From contig NW_020290057.1 in NCBI RefSeq assembly GCF_003144195.1, positions 39,059-103,058 of the forward strand: a stretch of 64,000 bases of DNA. The letters are read 5' to 3'. Both the position numbers and the translations under genes were made by a program. The DNA comes from Ceraceosorus guamensis (taxonomy: Eukaryota; Basidiomycota; Exobasidiomycetes; Ceraceosorales; Ceraceosoraceae). Shown here one piece after another: positions 5,764 through 34,433 of the stretch; position 1 is the stretch's first letter, and every line of letters starts with the position of its first letter. A model generated the notes under the pieces. The model had not been told where the DNA came from and did not search any database. It saw only the letters and a program-made list of their open reading frames with translations.

Positions 5764-7852
5764 GGCTGGCAAGCTTGCCAAGACTGATCGAATCGAATCG
5801 ACGCCAGATGTGCGATCTAACTCGCTGTGCGTTGCTTCAAAGGATAAGCAAAGGAGGCAGGATGTCCGGAGTCAGAGTAGGGAGGAGGATGATGATGGGT
5901 GTCCGAGCATCAGTCCCTCCGCGCCAACAATCAACCAAAAAGTCTCTTCTGTCTCTGCAAGTTCCAGCTCTTGCCCCGATGACGATCGATCGAAGTCGCC
6001 GACTCTTTCGAGGAGGAAGCAAGCAAGCAACATGCGCGCTGCCACATCACGTTCACATGTACGCTAACCGTGTCAACGTTTACGGTCCATCGTAGGCAAG
6101 AGATTCCGAGGTTGCAGCTAGTGGATGCGAGATCCGTCCACAATTGGTCCACGCTTGGGTAAGGAATCGTGAATGTGAGTGCCTGGGTTGCGTATGCCAG
6201 CACGAGCACGGTGTGTAGCTAAATGCAGCGACTGATTAGTGAGTCCAAAAAGTTCCATCCATTCATGCAGCAAGCAGCCGTCGGCAAATCATCGGAGCTG
6301 CATTTGATTGTACGCTTTCAAGATGTGAGAGTCAGATGAGTCTATCAATCACGAATCACGAATGAGTCGATCTGATGTGGACGGGGTTTGTACATGAAAA
6401 CAGGCAGAAGAGTTTCGAGTTTCGAGTTTCGAGTGCGGGTGGCCCGTGATACGCCGGTGCATTCACATTCGTGATTCAAAGATTCTTAAGATTCACATTC
6501 TCGATCGAGGTGCGAGTCAAAGTGCATGAAACAGCTATAGGCTTGCAGCGGCGAGTCGGCGCTAGGCTTTAGACATCAACGCCGATCAAAATCAACGGTC
6601 AAGAGTCGCGCGCGTGAGTTCTGAGTTCGGAATCTTCACATCTTGAATTAGAACCTCGAATTTGAACAACAATCAAGTGAATTTGATCTCCATCCCATCA
6701 GCCGCTGCATGCATGCATGCATGCATGCGCGTATGCACGGTGACATGTCTGCGATCTCTGCACCACGAAACTGAATTTGAATCTTGAATGTCGTCGGCAT
6801 GCAATTTTGATCATGAATCGAATCTTGAATTAAATAGAATCTTGAACATCAAGAAGTCTTCAGTCATGAGTTCACAACAAATCAATCACGTCAAGGTGAG
6901 TCTCGAAGCGACCAGTCTTGAATCTTGAAATCAGCATCTGAAATCAAATGAGATCTTGGATGTCACAAATGGATGTCCTTCAGCATCTCCAGTCACACGA
7001 CGACAGACTCACCACAATGTCACAAATGGATGTCCTTCAGCATCTCCAGTCACACGACGACAGCCTCAAAATTGTGGTGAGTCTGCAAGAACAACATTCC
7101 ACACTCGGTGGTGAATGAACGAAGCGATCGGGACATCCATCCATCCAAGATCGTATGCATGCTCGGTGCAACCATCTCAATTTCAATCACGTGAATGGAA
7201 GAATACAAGTGTACAGATCCATCATGATAGACTCGACTCAAGACTTGCACAGCCGCTGACCGGCATCGCATATAGCCCGACATCCGGAAAGGCGGATCTA
7301 CGCGTCGACGATCGATCGTTGCATCGCTGCCTGCAGCTTGATTGTGCACTTTTGCCTGACATGGGGTCACGTGAGCTCATCTTTGATCCGCGCGCGGAGC
7401 GCACGGAGCGCATCCTCCTCGTGCTGGGTTTGCTTTTTTTTTGTTCGGGGGTTCGCTAGGATGAGCATGTGCCACAGTCATGAGTCTTGAGTCTTGAGTG
7501 GTGAGTCAGGGTCCTGAGTCGCAATCTTGAATTGAGGGTGCTGGGCAGGGTCTCGTGACAAGAAAAGAGACGCTGTGACTCAAAGTTGATTCAAAGATTC
7601 AAGCTGGATTCACGATTGTGACAATCCTCATGACCTCAGACTCGATTGTCCCGCCACGTACCTCTGCGAGTCCCCGTGTCATCAGCAGGCTCCCTCCACC
7701 TTGCTGACATTACACGCACGCACGCACGCACGACTGCGATTCGGCGAGCAAAGACTCCAGACTCCCACGGGACTCACACCACATCACATTACGGTCTTGA
7801 CGAACTTTTGTAGCTGTCCCATCTTTTTCGCAAGCGTTCGCCGTGTCCAGCC
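5764..7852. promoter_or_regulatory. Divergent promoter region between MFS gene and ELP2
   Basis: About 2.1 kb with no supported gene. It is rich in short words of the type AATCGTGAAT, AATCACGAAT and CTTGAATC. It also holds a (GAGTTTC)n run (6411-6434), a GCAT run (6707-6728), an ACGC run near 7716-7732 and the 46-bp duplication at 6961-7063. Both flanking genes start from this interval, so it must hold their promoters; no specific site is identified. Confidence 0.55.
6961..7083. repeat. 46-bp perfect direct repeat with 12-bp inverted repeats
   Basis: Copy 1 is 6961-7006 and copy 2 is 7018-7063, identical over 46 bp. GACTCACCACAA (7006-7017) sits before copy 2 and its exact reverse complement TTGTGGTGAGTC (7072-7083) after it, so copy 2 lies in the loop of a possible hairpin. 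Confidence 0.9.
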
Positions 7853-10800
7853 ATGCAGCCGGCTGTGGATGCGACTGCGACTGCGACTGCGACTGCCAGC
7901 AAGAGCGCACAGCAGGCGGCGAGCCAGCCAGTGACTTCCTTGCCACCACCACCACCACCACCACTACCACCACCTACCACAGCTCACAGCCGACTGCAAT
8001 CAGAGGACATCTACATCTCCTCATCCGTCCAAAGATTATCCCACGTGGCCGACTGCACCACACTGCACCTCGATGATGCAAAGGGAGAACAGACAGCCTT
8101 GCCAGTGCTCGCTTTCGCTTCGGATAGAAGAGTCGCCATTTGCTACCCTACGCCCAGTGTGAGTGATGATGGACGCTTGTTTGCAGGACGCGCGAAAACG
8201 GAAGAGTAGGGCGTGCCCTTGCAATCTGACCACTCGCTCACGCCCCCCCTGCTTGCTTGCTTGCTTGCTTGCTGCATAGGCACTATCGACGCATACACTC
8301 CTACAACGACTACCAAGCCCCATCTCCGTCCTCAAATTCGCTCACAATCCCGCTCACCAAGCCGCGCCTCTTCTTCTGGCTGGTCTGACAGATGGTCACG
8401 TGTTCATTTGGCAAGCGTGGAGGAGCAGATATGGCGATGAGAAGCTGTGCAGGTTGTCGGATCAGGAACAGCTGGTGCCTGCGCATGCTCGAGCAGTCAA
8501 ATGGTCCTGCGTAGCTCGAGCAAAGAGCCACTCTCCCATCAAGGCGCTCGCTGTCCACAGACCCGCACAAGCAACAGTCAGCATCGGCAGCGCCGCTGCT
8601 GCGAGGGAGAAGGCGAAGAGCGACAGTGTAGTGCTGGTCACTGGCCACGCCGACTCTTCTTTGCGCGTATGGAGAGCAGCTCGTACAGATGCCTACGCTC
8701 CAGCTTCAGCCGAGCATTCTGATGAGCCTGCTCCGATCCAACTGGCACAAGGGCAAGCTCTGCAGCTGCAAAACGTGTCTTCGAGCTACAAAGCATCGCC
8801 TCTACCCTTGGATGCTGCGCTTGTACACGTCGATGAGAACACGGCTCTGCTCGCAGTGGCTTCCACAAGCAGCACGATCGCAATCTTTGGCTCGGTATCA
8901 GGAGAGGTGGGTTTGTGGGGTTGGGGAACAGTCTTGGGCTTCGCATCGCCCGCTTCCAGAGAGTACTGAAGCCCATTCGCCTTCGTCTCTTTTCGCAGTC
9001 TTTCGTGCCGCTGTGCGATCTTTCGGGACATACGGACTGGGTCAGATCGCTAGATTTCGTCCAACCTCGCCAGACCTCAAAGACCCTCTTGCTCGCTTCG
9101 GGAGCTCAAGACGGCTCCGTGCGTCTATGGAGATTCTGCTCCGCCGAAGACGCGGGTGCTTCCAGCTCCGAGGCTGTTGCGGAGAAGAGAGAGGCAGCAG
9201 CGCCACAGCAGCTGGACGCGTTCGATCAGTTGGCATCCAAATTGGAGAGCAATTTCAGCGCGCAGCCTAAAAGAGCTCGGGATCTGGTCTCCGCTTCGCA
9301 AAACTTTGTTTTGGGCGAGGAGAGGTGGAGAGCTAGATTGGATGCGCTCTTGGCTGCGCACGAAGGATGGGTCACTTCTGTTCGATGGGCTTCGTCGGCT
9401 CCTGTGCATGCTGGCGCGCGCGCACAATCTTCGACAGAGAGGGGGGCAGGAGCGTACGCTGCGCTCTTGTCCTCCAGCGCCGACAATAGTGCAATTCATT
9501 GGGGACCAGCTAGTGCACTTGCCAGCGCCGTCGATCAGCCTTTGGCTCGATTCGAAGCATCCGAAAGGACAGGCGAAAGCGAAGAGGACCAGTCGTGGAT
9601 GCCCTTGCATCGTTTCGGAGACTTGGGCACTCAAGGTACCGTCTCTTTGGGTTTGATGGGCGCTCTTTGGCTCCCTGAGCGAGCGTTCGCTGCGAGCGCT
9701 TCGGATGACGCTCCATCGAACGGCACTTTGAGGAATAGCGGTAGCGCCAACGTGGGCAAGGATGTGATCACGTACGGATGGAACGGGTCTTTCAGACGCT
9801 ACGTGGTGCGCAAGGAAGAAGAGACCCATGCGAGCGCATGGCGAAACGTGTTTGCTCCGGCTGGACATTGGCAACGCATCAATGCGGCAAAGTGGGAGCC
9901 GCAAGGCAAGTACTTTGCCACCGCTAGGTGAGGGTGGACCCCCCACGTTCTTGTTACGCGAGCAACCGAGCGATAATTTTGCGGGGCGCTGACTCTTGCT
10001 GGTTTGCTGTCAGCGACGACCGGACCACGCGCATACACGCCCGAGTGCGCATCGCACGATCCGCTCAGAAGTCACGCTCGGCTTGGCACGAAATTGGTCG
10101 ACCGCAGACGCACGGCCATGCGATACGTTCCTTGGCCTGGCTGGACCGCTTCGCATTGGCTTCTGCAGCGGACGAAAAGGTGGTGCGGGTGTTTGAGAGC
10201 ACGAGGGGGTTCGTGCAGAGCATTGCGAGGCTCGGATGTGCGCGAGGTGCGAAGAGGAGCAGCTCGGCCGTACTGCTCGTTCGACTGGGAGACGTCAACA
10301 CGACGGATGTGTCGCGCTTGAAAGAGGCGATCGAAAAGGTCGCGCAGCTTGCGACGACTTCGCAAAAAGGCCGACTGATCATCTTGTTGAATTCGCCTTC
10401 GTTTGAAGGCCTTGCTCAAGGGAGACCCATCAAGGCGTCGTTCGAAAAGGTCGAAAGCTTGCTCAAGGGCGTTTATGCCCTGGCTTGGGCTGTGGCGGTG
10501 CAAAAGGAACGTTTGGATGCGCAGATCGATGTGCTCTTTGCGGAAGATGTGCAGGTGCGAAGGAGCCGTCGCATGGCGCTGAGCCTGTGCCAGACGGAAA
10601 CGCTGCATGTTCTGGACGGTGAGTGGCGGCGCGCGCGCGGAGGTTTTTTATTTCCTTTGGGAGAGGGGGCAAATGGTGGGGGATGTTGTTGTTGACCCAT
10701 TTGGGTATTCTTGCTGCTCTCACAGACCGACCCGCTCCGCAGCGCGATGACTTGTCGCTCGACTTTGCCGAGCACATGGAGCGCATTCCTGCTCCTGCTC

Positions 10801-12479
10801 GGCAAGGTGACCAGGAAAAAGGCGAACAATCTGGCGAAGCGCTTCACACCTTTCCGCAGTACCGCAATGTGGCGATGGGAGGGACTTTTGATCACCTGCA
10901 TGTAGGGCACAAGATCTTGCTGAGCATTGCTGCGCTGCTCAGTCGAGATCGACTCATCGTGGGAATCACGGGAGACAGCATGTTGTCAAAGAAGGCCAAT
11001 GCGGAATTGTTGGAGGACATCGTGGAGAGGGTGGAGAGGGTGAACGAATTCTTGAAGAGGTTCAGGTATGGACAACCGCCCTTGGAGAGGTTCGTCAGGG
11101 AACTAAAAGATGTTGCTGGACCTGCTGGGACGGAGAGGGATTTGCAAGCTGTGCTCACCACGGACGAGACGATTTCCGGAGGAGATTTCATCGACAAGAT
11201 TAGAAGGGAACGCGGGCTTTGCGAGGTGCGAAGAGAAGTGATCGGTGTGATTGGCGCGCAGGGCCAGACGGATGTCAAGGGCGATGCAAAGGAGCTGGCT
11301 GCTAGCAAGATTGGAAGCACGGCCATCCGAGCTTGGTTGGCCAAGCGAAAGGACCAAGAAGATGCGACGTTGGCTAGACGTGAGACATCATCGGATGAGG
11401 AGGAGGAGCAGGACGGGGAGGAGGAGGAATTTTTGCGCTGCTGCTCTGCGACCGAGCAGGACAGACCGGTCGGGGCTAGCGTACCCCCGCTCGGTCTGTC
11501 CAATCGAGCTCTTCGATCCGTCGAAGAGGACATTCTCGAACCTCCATCAGCGTCCGGTCAGGATGTGGGCAAAGCGAGGATCTCCTTGTCCTCTGCATTT
11601 GCCCATGCTCCCACAGAGGAAGAATTGCACGCTACGACGCTCTGGCCAGAGGTGCACAAGTTGTACGGGCACGAATTGGAGTTGCTGCAGATGGACTGCG
11701 TCGAGATGGATGGGGCGAGATGGATCGCTAGCTCGGCTCAGGCAAAGAGCGTCAAGGATGCTACGGTCAGGATACATCGACACTTTGCGGCAGAGGCGCA
11801 GGGTCAGCCTTCTAATTGGCAAGAGGTGCATCGATTGGAAGGACACTCGTTGGGCGTCACGGCCATCGCATTTAGTCCCAGCAGTCCTGATGACGAACGC
11901 GCGCGATACTTGCTAACCGCGAGCAGAGATCGGACGTGGCGACTCTACGCTAGGGAAATGGTCGAGCAAAAGGCCGCCACTTGGAAATTCGTCGCCGAGT
12001 CGGGCAAAGCTCACACGAGGATCATCTATGGCGTATCGTGGGCACCGCAAGCCTTGCAGCAGCAGCAGCAGCAGCAGCATCGCGCTGGAGCCACACTGAT
12101 CTTTGCCACGGCTTCGAGGGACAAGACGGTCAAGATTTGGAGGTTGAGCATGCAAACTGCCTCCGTCGAGCTCTTGCAAACTTTCAAGTTGGCTCATGCT
12201 TGTACCAGCGTCGCTTTCCACACATCTCTGATGCTGGCTGTAGGATGCGAGAATGGCGATGTGGTCCTACTGGGTCCGCTCGAAGCTCGACGTGAGAAGA
12301 GGGAAAAGGATGCGCTGGGGCCGGGTAGGGAGTGGGAGGTCAAGGGAACGCTTTGGGAACATCATGCGGATGCTGTGACGCAGCTCGCTTGGAGACCTTG
12401 CGATGAGCCTGCTCGCCACACTCTACTTTCTGCTGCTGATGACGCCGTCGTTCGCCTATCCCTCGTCTATGTAGAGTAA
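7853..12479 (+). CDS. ELP2: Elongator subunit Elp2 with an internal CAB4-type phosphopantetheine adenylyltransferase
   Basis: Elp2 is the double-propeller WD40 scaffold of Elongator, which makes cm5U-type modifications on tRNA wobble uridines. Exons are 7853-8158, 8280-8906, 8999-9927, 10014-10618 and 10726-12479 (1406 aa), all GT-AG and in phase. Elp2 hallmarks before the insert are SGHTDWVRSLDF, SSADNSAIHWGP, GHWQRINAAKWEPQGKYFAT, SDDRTTRI and ADEKVVRVFEST (up to about residue 695). After it come GASVPPLGLSNRAL (from about 1072), TLWPEVHKLYGH, SRDRTWRLY and ASRDKTVKIWRL. Residues ~696-1071 are a full CAB4 module (separate entry). The Elp2 part alone is ~1030 residues, longer than the usual ~800, partly from an Ala/Pro-rich N-terminus and loops. 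Intron 1 carries a (GCTT)n run. The fusion is seen directly in one continuous frame; a functional link is inference. Confidence 0.93.
10237..11471 (+). other. CAB4: CAB4 (phosphopantetheine adenylyltransferase) module inside ELP2
   Basis: This part of the ELP2 reading frame matches eukaryotic PPAT, which turns 4'-phosphopantetheine and ATP into dephospho-CoA, the fourth step of CoA synthesis. It has the family's N-terminal domain (starting SSAVLLVRLGDVN, about residues 703-820), then the nucleotidyltransferase core: VAMGGTFDHLHVGHKILL with HxGH at about 881-884, LIVGITGDSML, LTTDETISGGDFIDKIR and KIGSTAIRAWL (STxIR at about 1020-1024). An acidic linker (EEEEQDGEEEE) leads back into Elp2. The only intron inside the module (10619-10725) falls between its two domains, not at a border with Elp2. 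No key motif is missing, so activity is plausible. Confidence 0.88.
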
Positions 12480-34208: not shown

Positions 34209-34433
34209 NNNNNNNNNNNNNNNNNNNNNNNNNNNNNNNNNNNNNNNNNNNNNNNNNNNNNNNNNNNNNNNNNNNNNNNNNNNNNNNNNNNNNNNNNNNN
34301 NNNNNNNNNNNNNNNNNNNNNNNNNNNNNNNNNNNNNNNNNNNNNNNNNNNNNNNNNNNNNNNNNNNNNNNNNNNNNNNNNNNNNNNNNNNNNNNNNNNN
34401 NNNNNNNNNNNNNNNNNNNNNNNNNNNNNNNNN
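34209..34433. other. Assembly gap (225 N)
   Basis: Run of N. Open frames drawn through it have no meaning. Confidence 1.

Follow-up and report, generated by a model that had tools for sequence, protein, structure and literature searches.

Phosphopantetheine adenylyltransferase (PPAT), an enzyme of coenzyme A (CoA) synthesis, is known both as a separate enzyme and as part of larger proteins. In the parts of PMC8494682 drawn on here, yeast Cab4 and Cab5 are described as monofunctional, with the dephospho-CoA kinase encoded by another gene, Cab3 is described as the scaffold of a CoA-synthesizing complex that includes Cab4, and the mammalian bifunctional CoA synthase, COASY, is presented as a larger protein that incorporates the PPAT of this pathway. 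COASY joins PPAT to dephospho-CoA kinase, which carries out the next step of the pathway. This fusion is organized end to end, as is that of an archaeal-type PPAT and DUF359, which we take to be a CoA-pathway kinase, in one open frame of L009, a metagenome-assembled genome (MAG) of Patescibacteria. A different arrangement is described here for a gene located in a window of 64,000 nucleotides from the basidiomycete Ceraceosorus guamensis (positions 39059-103058 of contig C62, in a genome assembly of 23.8 Mb and 199 contigs), in which a PPAT of the CAB4 type is nested within Elp2, a subunit of Elongator. Unlike yeast Cab4, which is a separate enzyme, and unlike the PPATs of COASY and L009, the PPAT of this gene is joined at its two ends to the protein that surrounds it; its partner is an Elongator subunit rather than the kinase of the next step, which is encoded on another contig, much as it is encoded by another gene in yeast. 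The analysis confirms that this nesting of PPAT in Elp2 is real, intact, and in frame.

The gene encodes a product of 1406 residues, with a calculated mass of 153.3 kDa, in an uninterrupted frame that extends from the ATG at 7853 to a TAA stop ending at 12479. To derive its model, four intervals were chosen between these two points and all GT..AG introns in them were listed. Nine intron combinations stay open, and three introns (8159-8279, 9928-10013, and 10619-10725) are common to all nine; the second intron alone varies among them, and 8907-8998 was picked by its splice sites. An in-frame stop lies 14 codons upstream of the ATG, and residue 1 is the sole methionine before residue 512, which is followed by methionines at 531, 808, 840, 873, and later positions.

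When the whole protein was compared with the sequences of the PDB by phmmer, the four best matches were Elp2 chains (5m2n, 4xfv, 8avg, and 8ptx; E 1.3e-49 to 4.3e-47), with which the product shares sequence matches in both propellers. In the alignment with 8avg_B, chain residue 477 corresponds to residue 692 of the product, and the match resumes with chain residue 489 at residue 1064. The aligned parts of yeast 5m2n end at 472 (residue 688) and resume at 485 (residue 1065), and those of 8ptx_B end at chain residue 475 and resume at 489. The stretches passing the threshold are 277-362, 600-688, and 1065-1338 for 5m2n, and 567-692 and 1064-1264 for 8avg_B. The difference from these chains consists of 371 residues holding the enzyme, placed between residues 477 and 489 of 8avg_B where solved Elp2 chains have 11-13 residues, together with a low-complexity stretch of about 50 residues, recognized by eye, at the N-terminus. 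Both junctions between Elp2 and the insert are located inside exons and in frame. An earlier sequence-only reading of this DNA had proposed the order Elp2-PPAT-Elp2 in a single spliced frame, which is borne out by the open frame and by the alignment of Elp2 on both sides; the boundaries that it gave, at about 695 and 1072, agree with the 692 and 1064 of the 8avg_B alignment, and its interpretation of the arrangement as insertion into a loop, not an end-to-end fusion, holds as well.

Residues reported as important in Elp2 can be followed through the same alignments. The Elp2 part of the gene keeps the HxDW and KLYGH motifs and all four basic-region arginines. For yeast Elp2, PMC5286394 reports that mutation of R626, R628, R654, and R675 results in phenotypes of transfer RNA (tRNA)-modification defects, and that residues 201-204 and 552-557 seem important. 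Mapped via the PDB alignment, 12 of these 14 positions are identical here, the two that differ being E202, replaced by T, and E552, replaced by H. Identity also extends to the human variant sites H206, T405, and R462 (all three that were mapped, L98 being outside the alignment), for which 8ptx_B was taken, as our assumption, to be the human Elp2 chain. The letters of this chain at the three sites agree with PMC8113450, which assigns R462 to a strand in WD40 domain two and to the interface with Elp3. R679 of the product matches R462 of 8ptx_B, and the insert begins 13 residues after it. Among the other Elongator subunits, the Elp3 model matches contig C15 of the genome and the Elp1 propeller model matches contig C118. 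Judged from its sequence, the Elp2 part looks functional.

The identity of the insert was examined by comparison with family models, solved structures, and yeast Cab4. PF01467 matches residues 873-1006 with 27.9 bits, above the cut-off of 21, and the insert alone matches five NCBIfam models, of which the three with the lowest E values (4e-23, 2e-15, and 4.5e-12) are PPAT models. Among PDB sequences, the insert came closest to 3do8, a PPAT (E=7.9e-07), and the next hit had E=0.026. An unverified sequence of yeast Cab4, compared singly with the product, matches residues 867-1027 with 35% identity and E=4e-29, and the score of the catalytic part against it was reached by none of 1000 shuffles. 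The likeness to yeast Cab4 and 3do8 resides in the catalytic domain with GGTFDHLHxGH and STxIR; the HxGH motif within the former and the STxIR motif are intact and aligned with the PPAT of L009. The search for CoaE (dephospho-CoA kinase) gave no match within the protein at E 0.001. These comparisons demonstrate, at the level of sequence, that the insert holds an archaeal/CAB4-type PPAT catalytic domain. The domain is preceded by about 175 residues, somewhat longer than the approximately 140 of that yeast Cab4 sequence and loosely aligned to them by MAFFT in a few positions, and the insert is likely to represent a whole CAB4. The linker on its N side is basic in 4 of 11 residues. Structure prediction carries little weight in this assignment: the AlphaFold2 model of the catalytic domain, built from two sequences (the window and L009), was poor, with a mean predicted local distance difference test (pLDDT) score of 43.8 and a predicted template modelling (pTM) score of 0.40, and a Foldseek search with it placed 3do8 first (E=1.2e-3, template modelling score 0.37), with no hit passing E 0.001 and with other folds close.

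Searches of the genome, carried out exon by exon, addressed the copy number of both parts. PF01467 was found at three places, namely this gene and two others, which from motifs in their frames we presume to be choline-phosphate cytidylyltransferase-like and nicotinamide mononucleotide adenylyltransferase-like. When the insert served as the query, the two exons that encode it were the sole matches at E up to 10, the archaeal-type PPAT model matched only the place of this gene at E up to 1, and the bacterial CoaD model gave no match in the genome at E up to 1. With the Elp2 stretches of about 310-696 and 1072-1406 as queries (residues 1 to about 310 lying outside them), the sole strong match was the gene itself, and the weak matches beyond it had E values of 7.8e-4, 0.059, and 0.070. 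The dephospho-CoA kinase model, CoaE, matches contig C27, where the better stretch contains one stop that may be an intron. A separate CAB4 gene, which the sequence-only reading had proposed to look for, was not found in the 23.8-Mb genome, and the gene is the sole PPAT and the sole Elp2 that these searches found there. The features of the locus, with the comparable frame of L009, are collected in Table 1.

Table 1. Features of the Elp2 gene with the nested PPAT, in positions of the window, and the end-to-end PPAT frame used for comparison.
Feature	Position	Strand	Remarks
Elp2 gene with nested PPAT (CAB4-type)	7853-12479	+	5 exons, 1406 residues
Exon 1	7853-8158	+	start codon 7853; presumed Elp2 start after low-complexity N-terminal stretch
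Intron 1	8159-8279	+	GTGAGT...GCATAG, 121 nt
Exon 2, Elp2	8280-8906	+	
Intron 2	8907-8998	+	GTGGGT...TCGCAG, 92 nt; ends chosen among several open options
Exon 3, Elp2	8999-9927	+	
Intron 3	9928-10013	+	GTGAGG...TGTCAG, 86 nt
Exon 4	10014-10618	+	Elp2 to residue 692 (10227), then N-terminal part of insert
Insert, residues 693-1063	10228-11447	+	lies between the residue where the alignment to Elp2 chain 8avg_B stops and the one where it resumes; contains intron 4
Intron 4, within insert	10619-10725	+	GTGAGT...TCACAG, 107 nt
Exon 5	10726-12479	+	catalytic PPAT domain, acidic linker, remaining Elp2, stop
PPAT catalytic domain, residues 868-1030	10860-11348	+	GGTFDHLHVGHK ... STAIR
Acidic linker, end of insert, residues 1032-1071	11352-11471	+	Asp/Glu in 16 of 40 residues
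Elp2 resumed, residues 1064-1406	11448-12476	+	from just before GASVPPLGLSNRAL to C-terminal end
Archaeal-type PPAT with DUF359, one frame	L009 4854-5930		Patescibacteria MAG

On the basis of these results, we consider it highly probable that the gene gives rise to one polypeptide of about 153 kDa, with the CAB4-type PPAT carried by a loop in the second of the two Elp2 beta-propellers, and the product is very probably one bifunctional protein that combines Elp2 with the only PPAT of the cell. In such a protein, the messenger RNA would be spliced as modelled into five exons, the insert-bearing loop would be exposed, and the propeller would fold around the insert as usual, with the PPAT looped out on a short N-side linker and a longer acidic C-side linker. 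Elp2 would still bind its Elongator partners, and the PPAT would convert phosphopantetheine and adenosine triphosphate into dephospho-CoA as the only such enzyme of the cell. According to the portion of PMC10018365 drawn on, Elongator has two lobes, and such a two-lobed assembly would carry two PPAT enzymes per dimeric complex.

Several observations weigh against this interpretation. Residues 1-276 and approximately 363-566 are unaligned to Elp2 at the threshold, being partly of the WD40 type according to Pfam, and all three NCBIfam PPAT scores fall under their curated cut-offs (82.2 bits against 104 for PRK00777). The N-terminal part of the insert resembles the unverified Cab4 sequence weakly, its local score being reached by 97 of 1000 shuffles, while two Elp2 stretches compared in the same way as a control gave 697 and 684 of 1000; of the full CAB4 proposed in the sequence-only reading, the catalytic domain (about 868-1030) stands, and the match of the roughly 175 residues before it is weak. 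Only three PF01467 places scored in the exon-by-exon search, and an ethanolamine-phosphate cytidylyltransferase, which we would expect in the genome, is absent from them, so that a strongly split second PPAT copy could be missed. In addition, AUG codons occur at residues 808 and 840, ahead of the catalytic domain, and a shorter product could be started internally from them.

These two AUG codons also speak for a rival explanation in which the locus yields separate products, with a free PPAT arising from an internal start of transcription or translation or by proteolytic release, for which the acidic linker could serve as the cleavage site. A free PPAT that includes its N-terminal part, however, cannot start at an AUG, because the first 115 residues of the insert contain none and the first AUG within the insert is that of residue 808; no stop follows the PPAT, and an internally started product would consequently include part of the second Elp2 propeller. 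Pfam, moreover, lists no processing motif in the protein, in which no search aimed at such motifs was made. We regard the release of separate products as improbable, and as marginally less probable still the alternative splicing of a long optional intron that would remove the insert and give plain Elp2 beside the fused form. When 7 GT and 13 AG sites around the junctions were tried, 46 of the 91 pairs kept the frame from Elp2 to Elp2, but by eye no in-frame donor resembles the four used by the gene itself (GTGAGT, GTGGGT, GTGAGG, and GTGAGT). The most similar site on visual inspection, GTGCGA at 10247, disrupts the frame whichever of the 13 acceptors it is paired with, and the 46 candidate introns measure 1091-1271 nt, compared with 86-121 nt for the four modelled introns. 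Even under alternative splicing, the fused form would remain the only source of PPAT found.

An assembly chimera or a pseudogene can be regarded as the least credible of these explanations, with a probability close to negligible. The gene contains no N, there is no gap in or near it, and neither a stop nor a frameshift occurs in the modelled frame. Both joins are in frame and within an Elp2 loop, the catalytic residues of PPAT and the functional residues of Elp2 are kept, and no other CAB4 or Elp2 that could have served as a source was found in the genome.

With respect to the origin of the insert, horizontal gain was considered, and in codon use the insert is indistinguishable from the Elp2 parts (chi-square p=0.14; the observed value is reached by 45 of 300 shuffles and 619 of 1406 rotated blocks). 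The longest word common to 10180-10300 and 11380-11520 has 9 bases, a length for which no chance comparison was made and which we read as giving no sign of how the insertion arose. The search of the prokaryotic genome contig collection yielded one bacterial PPAT, that of the Patescibacteria MAG, and in the viral contig collection no relatives of the PPAT or of a part of the Elp2 C-terminal half were found. Among 286 genomes drawn from the phylum of L009, 11 have a PRK00777 match over the cut-off, of which 9 lie in open frames of 321-382 codons.

Other features were recorded around the gene. Just upstream of it, at 6960-7068, a 57-base unit is repeated in 1.9 copies with a 98% match, and the sole assembly gap of the window, of 225 N, is located at 34209-34433. 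Rfam gave no matches in the window. In the region 13551-57322, 10 long frames were scanned, out of 19 of at least 280 codons, and 7 of the 10 match families, namely TFIIIC_sub6, RIC1, NAD(P)H-hydrate dehydratase, Utp21, Tti2, protein O-mannosyltransferase, and HAT repeats.

What the nesting means for the cell depends on whether the enzyme and its host protein are related in function. The most likely reading is that a loop tolerant of insertion carries the enzyme as a passenger, which is simpler than a functional tie. As Elp3 uses acetyl-CoA (stated in the parts of PMC11096365 and PMC7663514 drawn on), it is conceivable that CoA supply and Elp3 are linked in function; such a link is possible but not needed. 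A stronger form of this idea, in which the nesting is itself functional, with PPAT on Elongator coupling CoA synthesis physically, perhaps allosterically, to the wobble-uridine modification that uses acetyl-CoA, and with loss of Elp2 stopping CoA synthesis, appears rather unlikely. CAB1-CAB5 are described as essential in yeast in the cited part of PMC8494682, and by this analogy we expect this Elp2 locus to be essential for CoA.

No description of a PPAT/CAB4-Elp2 fusion was found in the open-access papers searched, and the order may be annotated without comment in domain-architecture databases. The arrangement is a new one of a known kind, namely domain insertion. Domain insertions and fusions within the CoA pathway are both known; the combination that was not met in the papers searched is that of an essential metabolic enzyme in the loop of an Elongator subunit, in a gene that is the only copy found of both. 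The finding predicts that the ELP2 locus of this fungus would be essential through CoA, not through tRNA, points to a site in Elp2 that may tolerate insertions, and offers a test of coupling between CoA supply and acetyl-CoA-dependent tRNA modification.

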